From the NCBI RefSeq assembly GCF_000760215.1, contig NZ_JNAW01000002.1, positions 466,300-530,299 of the forward strand: DNA of 64,000 nucleotides. The letters are read 5' to 3'. Positions 4,116-56,039 of this stretch are shown here, piece by piece (position 1 is the first letter of the stretch; each line of letters begins with the position of its first letter). The notes beneath the pieces are model-generated. The model was not told the origin of the DNA, ran no database searches, and saw only the letters and a program-made list of their open reading frames with translations. The translations under genes and the position numbers were made by a program. The DNA is from Prochlorococcus sp. MIT 0603. Lineage in GTDB: Bacteria; Cyanobacteriota; Cyanobacteriia; PCC-6307; Cyanobiaceae.

Positions 4116-5696
4116 TTAACCTGAATTTTCAATGTTTGCACCTAGAAAAAGTTTGTAGGCAGGATTTGTCGTTTCTTGCCAGTTTTTGTAACCAATGTCT
4201 TTTAGAAACTTCTCCCAATTGTGAAAATCATTTTTCTGAACTAATACACCTACAATTATCCTGCCAATATCAGCACCATGATTCCTATAGTGAAAGATGC
4301 TAATACTCCAATTAGGCCTCATAGCTTCAAGGAATCTCATTAAGGCTCCAGGCCGTTCTGGAAATTCAAATCTATAAAGAAGCTCTTTGTAAGAGTTGGT
4401 CGAGATATTATTTGTTTCTGGCAGTCTTCCTCCTACCATATATCTTAAATGCATTTTTGAGAATTCATCATCAGTTAAATCTATACATTTAAATCCCGAA
4501 TTTCTGATTTTATCTATAAATAATAAACGATCATTTTTATTCTCAACCTCAACTCCTATGAAAATATCGGCCGAATCTTTATTAGACATGCGATAACTAA
4601 ATTCAGTAAGATTTCTATTGCCTATTACCTTGCAAAGAAACTTTAAACTCCCGGCTTTTTCTGGGATTTCTACTGCAATCATCGCTTCTTTTTCTTCTCC
4701 AATAACTGATCTTTCTGCAACAAATCTGAGCCTTTCGAAATTCATATTTGCACCACATGTTACGGCGATTAAATTTTCATTATGGATATTATTTTTGCAG
4801 ATATCTAGCTTTAATCCTGCAATCGCTAATGCTCCAGCAGGTTCAAGAATCGATCTTGTATCTTCATAAAAGTCTTTCATTGCAGCACATATTTCATCTG
4901 TCTTAACCGTGATCATTCGGTCGACATATTTACTAGCTAAATCAAAGGTTATTTCTCCAACTTGTTTTACTGCAACACCATCAGCAAAAAGACCTATTTC
5001 ATTTAGTTGAATTCTTTTCTTGGCTTTTAATGATTGTGTCATTGCACAAGCATCCTCAGGCTCAACACCAATTATTTTGACCTGTGGCCAAAGATTTTTT
5101 ATATAAGTTGCTATTCCTCCTATTAGACCTCCACCACCTACTGCAATATAAATAGCAAATGGAGGACTCTCTATTTGTCTAACGATCTCAACCCCAATTG
5201 TTCCTTGCCCAGCAATTACTTCTGCATCATCAAAAGGATGAATAAATACAAGTTTTTGTTCTTTGCTTAGTCTTATTGCTTCTTGATAGGCCTCATCATA
5301 TGTATCACCATGAAGGATCACTTCAGCATTAAAGGATCGAACGGAGGCGATTTTTACCGGTGGAGTTGTTATTGGCATCACTATCACAGCTCTGCAATTT
5401 AAATAGGATGCACTTAGAGCTACTCCTTGGGCATGATTTCCAGCACTGGATGCAATTACGCCTGTATCACGTTCTTTTTTTGTAAGACGAGACATTCTGT
5501 TGTATGCACCTCGTAACTTAAAGGAAAAGACTGGTTGCAAATCTTCTCTCTTAAACCAAATACTGTTTTCAAACCTTTTACTTAGCTTTTTCGCTTTGTC
5601 TAGGGGGGTTTCTATGGCTACGTCATAAACGTTAGCTGTAAGGATTTTTTGTAGAATGTCCTCCATAGTTATCGATTCTTGCAGTTTTTGTGACAA
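4116..5696 (-). CDS. ilvA: Threonine ammonia-lyase, biosynthetic
   Basis: PLP enzyme that deaminates threonine to 2-oxobutyrate, the committed step to isoleucine. The catalytic domain spans about residues 15-330, with the PLP-lysine motif FSFKLRGAY and the phosphate-binding loop VGGGGLIGG. Two ACT-like regulatory domains follow (about 335-420 and 425-515), the arrangement found in the isoleucine-inhibited biosynthetic form, so allosteric feedback by isoleucine and valine is expected. Full length at 526 residues. The ATG at 5696 or the in-frame ATG ten codons later (MEDILQ) could be the start. Divergent from dxs across 88 nt. Confidence 0.96.
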   Translation of the reverse strand: MSQKLQESITMEDILQKILTANVYDVAIETPLDKAKKLSKRFENSIWFKREDLQPVFSFKLRGAYNRMSRLTKKERDTGVIASSAGNHAQGVALSASYLNCRAVIVMPITTPPVKIASVRSFNAEVILHGDTYDEAYQEAIRLSKEQKLVFIHPFDDAEVIAGQGTIGVEIVRQIESPPFAIYIAVGGGGLIGGIATYIKNLWPQVKIIGVEPEDACAMTQSLKAKKRIQLNEIGLFADGVAVKQVGEITFDLASKYVDRMITVKTDEICAAMKDFYEDTRSILEPAGALAIAGLKLDICKNNIHNENLIAVTCGANMNFERLRFVAERSVIGEEKEAMIAVEIPEKAGSLKFLCKVIGNRNLTEFSYRMSNKDSADIFIGVEVENKNDRLLFIDKIRNSGFKCIDLTDDEFSKMHLRYMVGGRLPETNNISTNSYKELLYRFEFPERPGALMRFLEAMRPNWSISIFHYRNHGADIGRIIVGVLVQKNDFHNWEKFLKDIGYKNWQETTNPAYKLFLGANIENSG

Positions 5697-8539: not shown

Positions 8540-8844
8540 TCTATAGCTTCCCTTTCTATTGAAACGATTTTCCAGGCGGCTATTGCTAAGCAACAATTAC
8601 CTATAAAAGTAAGAAGAGCTTGTATGTATACCAGTCCATATAAAGTTGTTGAATTATCATATACATGCCATGTTATTGCTGCCATGGCACTTGCCAGATT
8701 AGGAAGCATTGCAAAAGCTAACCAAATAAGATTCCTATAAATCTTTTCTCGTGCGGAAATTTGAGCAATTAAAATTATAGCCAATATCCATTCTATAAGA
8801 GTAAGGATATGTATAAACCATGTAGGGGTTGAAAGAGAATGCAC
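8536..8844 (-). CDS. DUF2499 family membrane protein
   Basis: Protein of 102 residues with three predicted membrane segments (about residues 10-28, 35-58 and 70-92). The start MHSLSTPTWFIHILTLIEWILA and the central tryptophan- and histidine-containing AAITWHVYDN resemble DUF2499, a family of unknown function shared by cyanobacteria and plants. It overlaps the DUF3593 gene by 4 nt and follows the peroxiredoxin Q gene after only 3 nt, so a single operon prxQ-DUF2499-DUF3593-psaK is likely. The tight coupling suggests that the two DUF proteins form one membrane complex. Confidence 0.8.
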   Translation of the reverse strand: MHSLSTPTWFIHILTLIEWILAIILIAQISAREKIYRNLIWLAFAMLPNLASAMAAITWHVYDNSTTLYGLVYIQALLTFIGNCCLAIAAWKIVSIEREAIE

Positions 8845-8847
8845 TGA

Positions 8848-9399
8848 TTAAATTTCTCTTTGCTTTAGTAGTTCATTCAATACTTCTTTTGGATGTTTGC
8901 TTGCATTTACATTTTGCCAACTATATTTGATTATTCCATTTGGATCTATTAAAAAAGTATTTCTTTTAGAATAAGAATCTTGCCATGAGGAATATTTCTT
9001 ACTTACTATGCCATCTGTGTCTGATAGTAGCGTTAGATGAAGATTCTGATCATCACAGAAGCTTATGTGACTTTCCATTGAATTGTTACTGATCCCTACT
9101 ATCAAGGCATTCTGGTTGTCAAATTTATTACTTAATTCCTCAAATTTTTTGGCTTCTATAGTACAACCTGGAGTTGAATCTTGTGGGTAGAAGTATAATA
9201 CTATCCATTTGCCTTTAAAATCTGTTAATGACCAATTGAATTTACCCTTATCTATATTATTGTAGCCTTGTAAATTAAAAACTGGTGCTACCTTATTTAT
9301 ATTTAGAATATCTTGGGTAGAAGCCAACATAGCTTGAGGGGTAAGTACTAGTATTATGGCTATTATTGTTACTATAAATCTTTGCAATATATATATCAT
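8848..9399 (-). CDS. bcp: Peroxiredoxin Q / BCP-type, exported
   Basis: Thiol peroxidase that reduces hydroperoxides. Residues 1-26 form a signal sequence (hydrophobic core followed by MLAS), so the enzyme probably acts in the thylakoid lumen or periplasm. The peroxidatic site is PGCT with Cys79 in FYPQDSTPGCT. In classical peroxiredoxin Q a resolving cysteine lies five residues later; here that position is alanine (IEAKKF), and the only other mature cysteine is Cys115 in SFCDDQ, so the resolving cysteine is either there or supplied by a partner. It heads a tight cluster with DUF2499, DUF3593 and psaK. Confidence 0.88.
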   Translation of the reverse strand: MIYILQRFIVTIIAIILVLTPQAMLASTQDILNINKVAPVFNLQGYNNIDKGKFNWSLTDFKGKWIVLYFYPQDSTPGCTIEAKKFEELSNKFDNQNALIVGISNNSMESHISFCDDQNLHLTLLSDTDGIVSKKYSSWQDSYSKRNTFLIDPNGIIKYSWQNVNASKHPKEVLNELLKQREI

Positions 9400-50278: not shown

Positions 50279-51652
50279 ATGATTAAAACATCGATAGAAA
50301 AATCAGATCTTCTAATCGTTAAGTGCGTTGATATTGATCAATCTGGTTATGGTGTTTGTACTTTCAATGCACAGGTTATTATTGTCCCTGGTTTAACTGT
50401 TGGAGATGAAGCTTTAGTTAGAAGCGAATATATATTAAGAGGGACATGGTACGGAAGTATAAAATCTATTAGAACATTATCTGCTCACAGAGTAAAACCT
50501 GCCTGTTATGTATTTGACCAATGTGGAGGATGCACTCTTCAGCACACACTATATACTCAGCAAAATTTATTAAAACAGAAGATATTGAATGATTCACTTA
50601 TGAGGATTGCTAACATTAAAGATTTTCCTATTACTTCACACCTGAATCCTACTAATTATTATAACTACAGGAACAAAGCAATTATTCCAACTGAAGTCCA
50701 ATCAGATGGATCATTTATAATTGGATATTATAAAAGAGGTTCTCATACTATTGTCGATATAAATTCCTGTCCTATATTGACAGATCAGATGAATGAGATT
50801 TATAAAATAATACAGAATTCTTTTGCTAATAATAAATTCCTATTTGTTCCCCAAAACAGTCCACTTAGATCTATAACACATATTTATATTAGACATTCTA
50901 TAAGAACTAACGAGATTTTAATTGCATTTATATCTAAAAGATCTATTTCTTATTACTTATCATCATTTGCCAATTATTTTAAACAACAAGAATATAATAT
51001 AGTTGGATTTGTTAATAATATACAGCCTCAAGATACAAATACTATATTAGGAACTAGATCCGAGATCATATATGGAAGGAATTATATAAACGAAAGGTTT
51101 TGTAACTTGTATTTTAAGATTGGTATAAGGTCTTTTTTTCAAATTAATATAATTGAAGCAGAGAAGGCAGTAAATCTCATTTTAGATCATGTTACCAAGA
51201 CATATAAGTGTAAACGTATAATAGATGCATATTCTGGGATCGGTACTATATCATTACCATTAGCCAAGACAGGATTAGATATTATAGGAGTTGAAATTAA
51301 TAGTGAAGCATATAAACTTTCATTAGAGAATATAATTGCCAATTCAATTAAAAATGTAAATTATATTCTTGGTGATGTAAGCAAATCCCTTTCTAATATT
51401 TTACAAAGTAGTGATTACTTGATAGTAGATCCACCAAGAAAAGGCCTTGATAAATCTATTATAGATTTAATTCTAAACAAACAACCTCAAAATATAGCCT
51501 ACTTGAGTTGTAATCCCTCAACTTTAGGTAGAGACCTTTCCTTATTATTAAAAGGAGATTTATACAAAATCAATAATATTTATTCTTTTGACTTCTTTCC
51601 TCAAACAATGCATTTAGAAAGTTTGGTTTTTCTTACAATATCATCTTCTTAA
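50279..51652 (+). CDS. rlmD: 23S rRNA (uracil-5-)-methyltransferase, RlmD/RumA family
   Basis: SAM-dependent methyltransferase making 5-methyluridine in rRNA. An N-terminal TRAM-like domain (about 1-60) is followed by the iron-sulfur cysteines in CYVFDQCGGCTLQH plus a later Cys in INSCPIL, then the Rossmann fold with IDAYSGIGTISLPLA, VDPPRKGLD and the catalytic LSCNPSTLGRDL. 457 residues from the ATG at 50279. A TTG at 50252 would add nine residues, but those bases belong to the repeat element, so ATG is preferred. The exact target uridine cannot be told. Its end overlaps convergent pheT by 12 nt. Confidence 0.88.
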   Translation: MIKTSIEKSDLLIVKCVDIDQSGYGVCTFNAQVIIVPGLTVGDEALVRSEYILRGTWYGSIKSIRTLSAHRVKPACYVFDQCGGCTLQHTLYTQQNLLKQKILNDSLMRIANIKDFPITSHLNPTNYYNYRNKAIIPTEVQSDGSFIIGYYKRGSHTIVDINSCPILTDQMNEIYKIIQNSFANNKFLFVPQNSPLRSITHIYIRHSIRTNEILIAFISKRSISYYLSSFANYFKQQEYNIVGFVNNIQPQDTNTILGTRSEIIYGRNYINERFCNLYFKIGIRSFFQINIIEAEKAVNLILDHVTKTYKCKRIIDAYSGIGTISLPLAKTGLDIIGVEINSEAYKLSLENIIANSIKNVNYILGDVSKSLSNILQSSDYLIVDPPRKGLDKSIIDLILNKQPQNIAYLSCNPSTLGRDLSLLLKGDLYKINNIYSFDFFPQTMHLESLVFLTISSS

Positions 51653-54136
51653 TTCTACTGACAACTCTTTTTCTAATCTTTTGATTATTTTTTCGTGAAT
51701 AGGCAGCATTTCCTCTTCTTTTAAAGTTTCTTTGTTCTTTCTATATGTAATTCTAAATGTTTGACTGATTTGATCTTGAGAAAGATTACTACCAGAGTAT
51801 TTGTCCAGTAATATAACATTTTCGACAATTGGCTTGCCTGTTTTCATTATTAGTTTGATAATCATAGCAGAGTTCACATTTAAATCAGTAATTAGAGCAA
51901 TATCTCTTTCCATAGCTGGAACTGTTGCATATTTTTTGAATTTAGGTATTAGTTTATTCCTCCTCGTACTTGCATTAAGTATTAATGTCAAATCTAGTTC
52001 AAAGAGATATAAAGCTTGCTCACAATCATATTTTGCTGCGATTTTTGGGTGGATTTGGCCAAATCTACCTAGGGTTTTACCTTCTAATATTAGATTAGAT
52101 GATTTGCCTGGATGAAATAATAAATCAGATTCCAACTGAATGTCTTCAATGTTAATTTTAAGTGATCTAAAGACAGACTCTATAAGCCCTCTTGCTTCGA
52201 AATAATCTAAGCTATCTCTTTTAGAGGTTGCTTGCCATTGGCCGATATGTCTATTACCTGTAATTGCACCGCCCAATATACTTTTTTCTTCTATTAATTT
52301 GTCGTTGTTAATATATATTTTACCTACTTCAAATAACCAACATCCATTGTTCCCAAAGTCAATATTCCTTTTGCAGATATTAATATGTTCCTCCCATAAG
52401 TTATTTCTCATATGACTAGTCTCTGACAGTAATGGGTTGTATATAGGAATTCTGTCCTTATTCACCTTATCTTGGGCGACTAGAGATGAAGTAACAACTT
52501 CCTGAAAACCAGCTGAGACAAAGCTCTCCTTAATTTGTCTGTCGATGTTTTGCTCAGCTGATAAGCCTCCTGGCCTTATTGGGTCAGGAAGGTTTGAATC
52601 AAATTTGTCATATCCTATAAGGCGGGCTATTTCCTCAATTAAATCTATCTCCCTAAGAAGATCATTAGTTCTATTTGGAGGCACTTTTACATCCCATCCA
52701 TCTTTATTCATAGTAGTAATGCAGCCTAGTAAAGTAAGGGATTCTTCAATCTCAGTCTCCAATAGCAGCCTTGTTTTAGAAGATATTTCATGTTGATTTA
52801 CGGACTGATCTTTACTACTATTTGAATTATCTATCTTCACCACACCAAGTATTTTATCTATTCTATCTTTCCTTAATAAGATTGATTTTGACGACTCTTT
52901 TAATACTCTATTAATCCATCTACCTTTCACATTACAATCAAACTTATCCTTAAATAATTGAATTGCTCTTGTAGCAGAATCTATTGTCATTTCTGAAGAA
53001 ACCCCTTTCTCAAATCGGCTACTAGATTCTGTTCTATTGCCAATCTCTCTAGCAGATGTCCTAACCATATTTTGAGGAAAAGAAGCCGCTTCAAGCCATA
53101 CCCTATTTGTTTTAGAATTTACTGCTGTGTTAGCACCACCTATTACTCCTGCTATAGCTATAGCTATGTCTCCACAAGTAATGACATTTATCTTTTCATT
53201 TAACTTGTATTCCTTATCGTCAATTCCAATGAATAATTCATCCTTAATAGCTTTTCTAATCCCAAAATCTGTTTGATTTACTTTTTTATTTAGAAGTTTG
53301 TCTAATAGATCAGCATCAAAGGCGTGGAGTGGCTGGCCTTGTTCAACCATTACATAGTTCGTGATATCGACTATTGCATTTATAGACCTTAAACCAATGT
53401 TTTTTAGAAGGTTTTGTAATTCCCAGCTAGAAGGAATGTTACCGTCAAGACCTGTTATTTCATGAAGTGAATAAATTAAAGTTTCAGTTTTGATATCTTT
53501 AGTTTTTAGATTAGGGCTAAATATTTTATATCCATTATTTTTTTCAATTAAAGGTAATGTCAATTTAGATTTTTTGATAGCTGATACTTCTCTAGCAATT
53601 CCAACCATAGACATCCCATCAGGCCTATTTGCAGTAATAGCAAGATCTAAGATTATGTCGTTATACCCAAAAATCTTAATAGGGCTTTCTCCTGGGTTAG
53701 GCAGTGTTCTTTTAAGCTCTTCTAATACAGCAATGCCTTCTGAACTTGAACTGATACCAAGTTCTTCATAAGAGCAGATCATCCCTTGGCTAAATTCCCC
53801 TCTTATTTCACTTTCCTTAATTTTCAAATCCACGGCCTTTAGATATGCTCCTTCTAGAGCAACTAATACATGCATATCTTTTTCGACATTAGAAGCCCCG
53901 CAAACGATTTGCAAATATTTTGTTTTGCCAACGTTAACAGAACAAATATTTAATTTATTTGCATTTGGATGTGGTTTAACCTCTGATATATATCCAATTA
54001 CAATGTTATTAAAAGCTGATGAAAGGTCAATAAGGTCATCAACCTCAAATCCTGCCATAGAAAGCGATTCACTGATATCATCGATGCCACTAGAGATCTC
54101 TACTAATTCTTTTAACCAGGAAAATGAAACCTTCAT
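51641..54136 (-). CDS. pheT: Phenylalanyl-tRNA synthetase beta subunit
   Basis: Beta chain of the alpha2beta2 synthetase that charges tRNA-Phe and edits misacylated tyrosine. The 831-residue protein has the N-terminal tRNA-binding (EMAP-like) domain with NKLNICSVNVGKTKYLQIVCGASNV, B3/B4 editing domain, B5 domain and the ferredoxin-fold C-terminus (KFKKYATVPAMERDIALI). Full length. Start ATG at 54136, divergent from the L33 remnant and rpsR. pheS is not in the window. Confidence 0.96.
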   Translation of the reverse strand: MKVSFSWLKELVEISSGIDDISESLSMAGFEVDDLIDLSSAFNNIVIGYISEVKPHPNANKLNICSVNVGKTKYLQIVCGASNVEKDMHVLVALEGAYLKAVDLKIKESEIRGEFSQGMICSYEELGISSSSEGIAVLEELKRTLPNPGESPIKIFGYNDIILDLAITANRPDGMSMVGIAREVSAIKKSKLTLPLIEKNNGYKIFSPNLKTKDIKTETLIYSLHEITGLDGNIPSSWELQNLLKNIGLRSINAIVDITNYVMVEQGQPLHAFDADLLDKLLNKKVNQTDFGIRKAIKDELFIGIDDKEYKLNEKINVITCGDIAIAIAGVIGGANTAVNSKTNRVWLEAASFPQNMVRTSAREIGNRTESSSRFEKGVSSEMTIDSATRAIQLFKDKFDCNVKGRWINRVLKESSKSILLRKDRIDKILGVVKIDNSNSSKDQSVNQHEISSKTRLLLETEIEESLTLLGCITTMNKDGWDVKVPPNRTNDLLREIDLIEEIARLIGYDKFDSNLPDPIRPGGLSAEQNIDRQIKESFVSAGFQEVVTSSLVAQDKVNKDRIPIYNPLLSETSHMRNNLWEEHINICKRNIDFGNNGCWLFEVGKIYINNDKLIEEKSILGGAITGNRHIGQWQATSKRDSLDYFEARGLIESVFRSLKINIEDIQLESDLLFHPGKSSNLILEGKTLGRFGQIHPKIAAKYDCEQALYLFELDLTLILNASTRRNKLIPKFKKYATVPAMERDIALITDLNVNSAMIIKLIMKTGKPIVENVILLDKYSGSNLSQDQISQTFRITYRKNKETLKEEEMLPIHEKIIKRLEKELSVELRR

Positions 54137-54252
54137 TTGTTTTTTAACTATTAGCTGATCCTACTTTTTCAGGGGAATGTTTTTTAAAGTTCTCGTGAGC
54201 TTGTAGGATAAGCATTCAACTATACGTATTGCTAAAGTAACTCTACGTCCTT

Positions 54253-54418
54253 ATGACAAAAACAAGGACGTCCGGATAAAATTACCCTCGGGTCCGATAA
54301 TTTCCGGAAAACTCCTTCCAAGCTATTTATCTGTCTTTAATTACACTACCAAAGCTTCTAAATCATGAAGGATACTCGCTTCAGCAATAAACCAACTCCT
54401 TTCATGGAGATTCAATAA
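54253..54418 (+). pseudogene. rpmG: Decayed 50S ribosomal protein L33 gene
   Basis: The place between pheT and rpsR is where marine picocyanobacteria carry rpmG. Translating in changing frames recovers L33 pieces in order: ATG then, one base off, KNKDVRI (54258-54278); in another frame ITLGSDNFRKTPSK (54281-54322) matching ITLECTECR with the zinc cysteines replaced by Ser and Phe; then VFNYTTK (54333-54353) for VSRYTTE; and [10 protein letters not shown]-stop (54386-54418) for the NKMT-HKEIK end. At least four frame changes and a shortened length (166 against about 195 nt) exclude a working product. L33 is dispensable in some bacteria; another copy may exist elsewhere. Confidence 0.72.
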
Positions 54419-54455
54419 AAATTATTTTTTTAACCAAGCACCAACTCAAATAACA

Positions 54456-54677
54456 ATGCCAAATTCCTTCTTTAAAAAAAAGCTCTCTCCTATCAAACCT
54501 GGCGAACCAATAGATTATAAGGATGTTGAAACCCTCAAAAAATTCATTACAGAGCGAGGGAAAATACTTCCCAGAAGGTTAACTGGCTTGACAGCTCAAC
54601 AACAAAGAGATCTAACTACAGCTGTAAAGAGAGCTAGGATTATAGCCCTTTTGCCATTTGTAAATCCCGAAGGTTAA
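54456..54677 (+). CDS. rpsR: 30S ribosomal protein S18
   Basis: Small-subunit ribosomal protein at the platform near the S6 site. The 73-residue sequence contains the diagnostic [50 protein letters not shown] spread over residues 18-68 (given here in part only by its landmarks [32 protein letters not shown]). It follows the L33 remnant by 37 nt, and no clear ribosome-binding sequence precedes its ATG. RNase II follows 63 nt later. Confidence 0.97.
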
Positions 54678-54740
54678 TATGCATAAGAAAAGGTATATGT
54701 AAAATGTAAAAAAGGGTCCATAGATATAAGATTTTAGAAG

Positions 54741-56039
54741 ATGATTACTAAAGATTTAAAAGATCCTTTATATTTATCTTTAATTTCTGATATAAAGAAA
54801 AAAAATAGAGATATCATCACATCAAAAAATAGTTTTTTAAATCTAACTAAACTTAAAACCTATTCTATTGATGATAAAAATACAATCGAAATTGATGATG
54901 CATTCTCAATTCAAAAAATAGAAAATAAAACATATTTATGGATACATATAGCAAGTCCATCAGTTCTTATACCAATCAATAATGAAATTTCAATAAGAGC
55001 ATCAAGACTAAGTTCAACAATATATGACCCTGAATCTATTTCTTATATGTTCCCCAAAGAATTAGTTATTGAGTGCTTAAGTCTAAGTAGAAAAAGAGAA
55101 TGTGTTGCCTTAAGTATGGCCTTAGAAATAAGCGATAATGGCAATATTGTAGGTTATAAAATATTTAATAGTATTGTAAGGCTTACTTATAATTTAACTT
55201 ATGAGGAGGCTGATGAAATTCTTGATTATCAACCTAAGGAAGAGTCAGATCTTATTGAAATATTTAATATATTAAATATTTATTCAATAATACGTAAATC
55301 TAATGGTTCCTTGTCATTGAATGAACCACAGGGTTTTTTCTATGAAGAAAATAATAATTTATACTTTAAAGTCAAGGAATTTTCTCCATCTCGAAAGTTA
55401 GTAAGCGAGTCAATGATTTTGTTTGGTTCATTAATAGCTAATTACTGTCGAAATAATTCGATTGATATCCCATATAGAAATCAACAAGCTCCAACAACTA
55501 AACTGCCAACCTCTCAAACAATTAATAGTCATAATCACCTACATATCTACAATTACATCGTAAAGTCTAAGTTATCTAAATCAACAATTGACATAAGACC
55601 TACTGGACATTTTAGTCTAGGCTTAAAGGAATATACACATGCAACCTCTCCTTTAAGAAGGTATATTGATTATATTACGCATTACCAAGTTATTTCACAT
55701 ATAAATAATGAGCCTCTAATACCGATTAATATTCTTATAGAAAAAATTAGTCAATATAATAAAAGGTCATTAAATAATTCATTAATTTCCAGAAATAATC
55801 AAAGGGAAATGATTTTGAGATATTTAGGTAAATATCTAAGTAAAAATAGAGAAGTAATCTTTCTAAGATGGCTTATTAAGAACAAAAATATTGCTCTAAT
55901 ATTTTACAAAGAGCTATATTTAGATATAGTCACCATACTTTATGGTGACATGGAATTTCAATTAGGAGATGAATTTAGTATTAATATTGATTCTATAGAC
56001 ATAGATAAAGATAATATTCATGCTCATTTAATTACCTAA
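54741..56039 (+). CDS. RNase II/R family exoribonuclease, compact form
   Basis: 3'-5' exoribonuclease of the RNB family (432 residues). The catalytic aspartates are in SIDDKNTIEIDDAFSIQ (about residues 45-60), the RNB end motif is EYTHATSPLRRYIDYITHYQVI, and GPxTSP-like residues are preserved, so the active site looks intact. N-terminal cold-shock domains are missing and the C-terminal S1-like part is very short, as is usual for the picocyanobacterial version. ATG at 54741. Confidence 0.9.
   Translation: MITKDLKDPLYLSLISDIKKKNRDIITSKNSFLNLTKLKTYSIDDKNTIEIDDAFSIQKIENKTYLWIHIASPSVLIPINNEISIRASRLSSTIYDPESISYMFPKELVIECLSLSRKRECVALSMALEISDNGNIVGYKIFNSIVRLTYNLTYEEADEILDYQPKEESDLIEIFNILNIYSIIRKSNGSLSLNEPQGFFYEENNNLYFKVKEFSPSRKLVSESMILFGSLIANYCRNNSIDIPYRNQQAPTTKLPTSQTINSHNHLHIYNYIVKSKLSKSTIDIRPTGHFSLGLKEYTHATSPLRRYIDYITHYQVISHINNEPLIPINILIEKISQYNKRSLNNSLISRNNQREMILRYLGKYLSKNREVIFLRWLIKNKNIALIFYKELYLDIVTILYGDMEFQLGDEFSINIDSIDIDKDNIHAHLIT

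Follow-up and report, generated by a model that had tools for sequence, protein, structure and literature searches.

A decayed zinc-ribbon rpmG between pheT and rpsR and an intact cysteine-depleted L33 gene elsewhere in Prochlorococcus sp. MIT 0603

In the genome of Prochlorococcus sp. MIT 0603, the resident gene for the zinc-ribbon form of ribosomal protein L33 (bL33, rpmG) has decayed to a relic between pheT and rpsR, and an intact rpmG of a cysteine-depleted form lies elsewhere in the genome. Relics at the same position in related genomes range from a gene with one frameshift to heavily scrambled sequence. Very probably, the cysteine-depleted form, which sits in a variable genomic region, displaced the resident gene.

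The relic of the resident rpmG

The relic lies on the forward strand at 54253..54418 of the window (the whole stretch of 64,000 nt analysed here), from a start codon at 54253-54255 to a terminal TAA at 54416-54418. The 319-nt interval that holds it is bounded by two intact genes: pheT (51641..54136, reverse strand), the divergent neighbour that fixes the synteny and whose N-terminal part served to build the species tree, and rpsR (bS18; 54456..54677, forward strand), which is the downstream partner of rpmG in relatives. Compared with the intact 195-nt rpmG of the same-genus genome G006, which encodes the form with four zinc-ribbon cysteines (4-Cys), the relic has only 166 nt, and the 29 missing nucleotides correspond to four deletions of 1, 1, 2 and 25 nt, each of which alters the frame. 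All four zinc-cysteine codons, read by eye from the alignment, are changed as well (TGT to TCC, TGC to TTC, TGT to ACT and TGC to AGC). A preliminary description of this DNA had claimed a frameshifted rpmG remnant in its syntenic place, with at least four shifts and two zinc cysteines replaced, and had named a DNA alignment with the rpmG of a relative as a check. That alignment gave a match of 63.9% identity over 166 columns to the G006 gene (55.5% over 164 columns to the rpmG of the second form in genome G010), so that the remnant and the number of shifts held, and the replacement of cysteines proved to extend from two to all four.

In a frameshift-tolerant alignment, the relic scored 61 with the G006 4-Cys protein, a value reached by none of 548 tiles of 319 nt taken from both strands of the window (mean 26.1, sd 4.6, maximum 44). 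A second 4-Cys protein scored 57 on the relic and, over 60 dinucleotide shuffles, a mean of 25.8 with a maximum of 41. The list of open reading frames holds none of 30 aa or more within 54253-54418; a run of 53 codons without a stop extends across the relic, but none of ATG, GTG or TTG is present in it as a start. The locus is thus homologous to rpmG and sits at the pheT-rpmG-rpsR position, and it lacks both an intact reading frame and the four zinc cysteines: it is a genuine relic of the resident zinc-ribbon L33 gene.

Upstream of the relic, a -10-like promoter motif for rpmG and rpsR, TTGTAGGAT, was recognised by eye at 54201..54209 (forward strand); it is present in most of the aligned relatives, again by eye, and its retention in the window suggests that it probably still drives rpsR. 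The same motif, as GATCCTAC, lies at 54157..54164 on the reverse strand, where it would be promoter-like for pheT. An inverted repeat, GATCCTAC/GTAGGATC, was set aside, since two divergent promoters would account for its appearance. A search for Rfam families in 54000-54800 gave only one chance hit, which reached 18.9 bits where the gathering score is 70. The spacing between pheT and rpsR averages 342 nt (319-377) at 15 broken sites and 349 nt (342-355) at 13 sites with an intact 4-Cys gene, and it is nearly constant even at sites where no gene can be read; the interval in the window is the shortest of the 15. This constancy may mean that rpsR depends on the spacing, or else that large deletions seldom occur. 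The next gene of the conserved block, at 54741..56039 (forward strand), presumably encodes an RNase II/R-like protein; it is 39-44% identical to its same-genus counterparts, and the neighbouring rpsR is 93-99% identical.

The intact rpmG and the form that died

When the whole genome (G000; 1.75 Mb, 7 contigs, completeness 100, contamination 0.09) was searched with Pfam L33, one intact rpmG was found above the cut-off, on contig C4 at 8827-9021, with the product MAKKGTRIVVTIECTECR...KKFCPQLNKMTIHKEIK. Among named rpmG records, those nearest to it come from Prochlorococcus single-cell genomes, in a set from which the record of G000 itself may be missing. This copy belongs to a form that we label QL, in which there is a two-residue insertion and CPQL replaces the CPHC of the 4-Cys form. 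When the zinc positions were read in an alignment of 64 genes, all 18 intact 4-Cys genes were CCCC, and none of the 43 QL genes had the fourth cysteine. A further cysteine is missing in 14 of the 43; the G000 copy retains three, two high-light-type genes keep a single zinc-position cysteine, and WH7803 reads CCCD. With its incomplete zinc cysteine set, the C4 copy qualifies as a cysteine-depleted (C-) bL33. The supposed loss of L33 in this organism is contradicted by this gene, which is just what the preliminary description had proposed to look for, namely a second rpmG, especially one free of cysteines. What had been taken as loss by streamlining is better read as the displacement of a resident gene by a second form, and G000 should not be annotated as having no L33.

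The relic is not an old copy of the QL gene. Its score is 61 with the 4-Cys protein, against 26 with the QL protein of its own genome and 28 with that of G010, the latter two being no better than chance, and like the 4-Cys form it shows a 6-nt gap; a Synechococcus QL protein, which shares the KGVRI start, reaches 43, above most tiles. Since the relic is of the 4-Cys type and the intact copy is QL, the zinc-type gene died and QL took over, which differs from a simple relocation.

The best solved relatives of QL are 9i5t and 7jil, the latter of which we take to be from Flavobacterium, and their second knuckle has no cysteines in the alignments; the best match of the 4-Cys form is chloroplast L33. 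A source of QL in Bacteroidota was set aside, the likeness being provisionally taken as convergence. The rpmG gene tree was also discarded as a guide to the root or date of QL; as it is too short and weakly supported, we draw no origin of QL from it.

Broken sites, variable regions and zinc in related genomes

The arrangement in the window recurs in the wider family. Thirteen genomes (G000, G002, G024, G028, G037, G051, G052, G053, G054, G070, G099, G104 and G138) have QL elsewhere together with a readable pheT-rpsR locus; an intact rpmG at the native site was found in none of the 13, and a recognisable relic in 8. With the G006 protein, relic scores were 317 in G053 (one frameshift), 284 in G138, 161 in G104, 88 in G051, 80 in G002, 61 in the window and 48 in G054 (marginal). 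These seven exceed the tile maximum of 44, which was drawn from the window and is approximate for other genomes, and they run from one frameshift to heavily scrambled sequence; for each of the seven, the G006 4-Cys protein gives a higher score than the G000 QL protein. In G037, a relic with a stop was recognised by tblastn. The other sites did not rise above the tile maximum (G070 41, G024 40, G099 40, G052 34 and G028 24), and with scores of 24-41 it is their position that points to a former gene. Two additional broken sites occur in genomes where QL was not found, namely G040 (one stop; 77% complete) and G077 (score 69; 70% complete). Because many of the genomes are incomplete single-cell assemblies, single lesions such as those in G053 and G040 could be sequence errors.

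A search with a QL query found no second L33 beside the intact native 4-Cys gene in any of 13 sampled genomes, each giving a single match, and four of these genomes are at least 99% complete. Both forms are intact in five Synechococcus-like genomes (G017, G073, G180, G218 and G248), with the 4-Cys gene at pheT-rpsR and QL elsewhere, and a few further genomes show two or three L33 matches to the same query. The five two-form genomes indicate that co-existence is possible, which counts against strict exclusion, and they may resemble an ancestral two-gene state of the others.

The same-genus set comprises 14 genomes including that of the window, with an L33 match over the cut-off in 10 and a readable rpsR in 7. 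At the native site, QL is found in G001, G005, G010 and G012, and the 4-Cys gene in G006; in G003, QL adjoins pheT where a contig ends, and this genome was counted as native. The one-contig genome G002 mirrors the window, with a relic at pheT-rpsR and QL elsewhere, and the type of its relic is ambiguous (80 with the 4-Cys protein, 88 with the Synechococcus QL protein). The sister species G006 and G012 carry different forms at the same site. In 40-nt windows, their identity is mostly 72-93% on the upstream side (55% at the outer end), 62-80% in the gene, 55-67% in the 3′ spacer and 80-93% in rpsR; this profile looks like a gene replaced in place, with a less sharp 3′ edge.

Parsimony on a PheT tree with 60 rows, of which 15 are broken and 45 occupied, requires the site to switch between these two states at least 12 times, a count in which gain and loss are not distinguished and unreadable relics are scored as broken; the tree is a quick one, with support below 80% for 21 of 56 inner branches and one genome entered twice. 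The window is sister to G010 and G005 at 95/75 in one PheT tree and unresolved in the 60-row tree, and its branch since the split amounts to about 0.5 substitutions per site of the N-terminal part of PheT. G010 and G005 have QL in place; the break in the window is probably younger than this split. The remnant had been called recent enough to recognise; recognisable it is, and its recency is relative to a branch of this length.

QL genes away from pheT-rpsR lie in variable surroundings. A tRNA-Ser(CGA) gene is found 0.3-6.6 kb from QL in 11 of 28 such loci (6.2 kb in G000), and none was seen in the other 17 within the retrieved stretches, some of which are short. Neighbours of Prochlorococcus-like QL loci mostly differ, with a few gene families in common, and about 4.5 kb around rpmG are common to G180, G218 and G248 at 85-89%. 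Beyond the tRNA in G000 there is a solute-binding protein gene (Pfam), and a similar gene was seen by eye in G002. In G053, G033 and G138, which are coded as three genera, 874-950 nt around the QL rpmG are 95-96% identical, whereas the pheT-rpsR DNA of G053 and G138 is 68% identical over 953 nt; this difference points to recent transfer. The native pheT-rpsR locus of G033 was not found. Direct repeats of 34 nt, at most candidate attachment sites, flank rpmG in these three genomes, 713-723 nt apart.

No catalytic integrase domain was detected among ten proteins scanned in G000 and G002. In G002, the gene adjoining the island rpmG (L128:8741-9748) fuses Arm-DNA-bind, an integrase domain, to DUF218, and it is perhaps the scar of an integrase. 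Phage carriage of QL rpmG was considered and set aside: no relative was confirmed when viral contigs were scanned by pattern, and a search of 50,697 phage records at E 1e-5 was likewise empty. A repeat of about 80 nt lies near an island rpmG (L159:9547-9661), with copies in L131, L132, L133, L134, L136, L143, L161 and L194; it contains CTCCTCACACA and closes with a GC-rich, hairpin-like element that runs into T. In its motif it may resemble the small RNA Yfr1, and it gave no Rfam Yfr1 match at the gathering score. Single, partial copies occur in G064, G089, G016 and G051, and none in G000. As the repeat occurs elsewhere too, it was rejected as a marker of island rpmG. Copies of the small RNA Cyano-1 were found at L159:2072-2138, L205:459-525 and L206:1310-1376 and 4531-4597, one of them on the contig of the G053 island rpmG; in G138 and G033, others adjoin copies of the 80-nt repeat.

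Since QL cannot form a four-cysteine site, zinc saving is a reasonable driver, plausible though unproven. Zinc has not been purged from every ribosomal protein: of the L31 and L36 of G000 (L199:1498-1698 and L198:1501-1614), L31 has a single cysteine and is a non-zinc form, and L36, with three cysteines and a histidine, retains the zinc type. For what we take to be the Zur consensus, TGATAATNATTATCA, the 400 nt upstream of 45 rpmG genes contain no close match; the best have 3 mismatches (G002, G031 and G050), as raw counts without a chance control, and two of these lie at -43/-44 (G002 and G050).

Probable displacement of the zinc-type gene, rival explanations and known systems

We propose that the second rpmG, the QL gene in a variable region, most likely supplies bL33 to the ribosome. 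If QL L33 fits the same ribosomal place, a cell with both genes would most likely tolerate the loss of either, and a redundant resident 4-Cys copy would decay through small deletions and substitutions; the promoter motif common to rpmG and rpsR would be kept, because rpsR probably needs it. Redundancy, perhaps together with zinc saving, would drive the loss of the native gene, and QL may pass from cell to cell when islands are exchanged or recombine homologously. To go from redundancy to a zinc benefit, or to a tie with metal-poor water, is supposition. Against this reading, genomes with QL at the native site, of which nine were measured, need a further gene swap.

Other explanations have to be set against this displacement. 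If the resident gene had simply been copied to an island and its old copy had decayed, a single intact rpmG in the genome would be expected, as is found, and a TTGTAnnAT-like motif is, by eye, common to the island and native promoters; such relocation is nevertheless improbable, because the relic is 4-Cys and the intact copy QL, the two differing in the two-residue insertion and in the CPHC/CPQL knuckle, and because both types are intact in the five Synechococcus-like genomes. True loss of L33 as streamlining would agree with the many lesions in the relic, and L33 is dispensable in some bacteria; the intact gene on C4 makes it very improbable. We give practically no credence to an assembly or sequencing error that mimics a broken gene, for although the genome is a draft in 7 contigs, 64% identity, four indels and four changed cysteine codons far exceed read error, and the same arrangement occurs in the one-contig genome G002.

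That the relic is now retained as a leader of rpsR, with its spacing under selection, is compatible with displacement, and we regard it as unlikely, if less so than relocation. The mean spacing at the 15 broken sites is near that at the 13 intact 4-Cys sites (342 vs 349 nt) and the promoter motif is retained, but the relic sequences are mostly dissimilar to one another, the window interval is the shortest of 15, Rfam gave nothing beyond one chance hit, and the spacing could merely reflect the rarity of large deletions. Displacement of the resident zinc-type gene by QL remains the reading that we favour. A broader version of it, put forward tentatively and with slightly more doubt than belief, is that QL is a core gene that roams among marine picocyanobacteria, delivered again and again by islands, and that each arrival makes the resident zinc-type rpmG redundant, so that the latter dies or is overwritten in place; mobile islands would in this way have remodelled the ribosome about a dozen times or more, with zinc saving as a benefit.

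The broken sites show, in nature, successive stages in the death of a gene, the mildest with one frameshift and the most advanced unreadable, for a ribosomal protein replaced by an apparently mobile form. With this series, the reason why ribosomal proteins abandon zinc becomes testable in photosynthetic cells that are very abundant in a metal-poor ocean, and the case illustrates that the sole intact gene for a ribosomal protein can sit in a variable genomic region. By title or abstract, no report of L33 replacement in Prochlorococcus was found in a literature set of partial coverage with few subscription papers. On that partial literature, an L33 gene in variable islands and, in Prochlorococcus, a gradation of dead zinc-type genes appear to be new; the exchange of zinc and cysteine-depleted forms of ribosomal proteins is of a kind already known.

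Makarova and colleagues reportedly described, in 2001, zinc-ribbon ribosomal proteins that come in C+ and C- forms, L33 among them. Their account shares with the present case a zinc form and a cysteine-depleted form, duplication, horizontal transfer and the loss of one of the two; the present case differs in that a single marine family shows the replacement at many stages and in that the cysteine-poor gene is located in variable regions. Hackl et al. reportedly described tycheposons and tRNA-linked islands in Prochlorococcus, to which the 11 of 28 QL loci near tRNA-Ser(CGA) bear a partial likeness in their variable gene content; here, in contrast, the ten proteins scanned include no catalytic integrase domain, and one Arm-DNA-bind domain was found (G002). 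In PMC3087516, a ribosomal protein gene is likewise swapped between zinc and non-zinc forms, but that case concerns another protein and phylum-scale transfers, and the word Prochlorococcus is absent from its main text. According to the same source, M. tuberculosis and S. coelicolor have low-zinc C- paralogs of L33, so that there, too, a cysteine-poor L33 can replace the zinc form; those bacteria keep both genes and make the C- form at low zinc, whereas here the zinc gene is dead.
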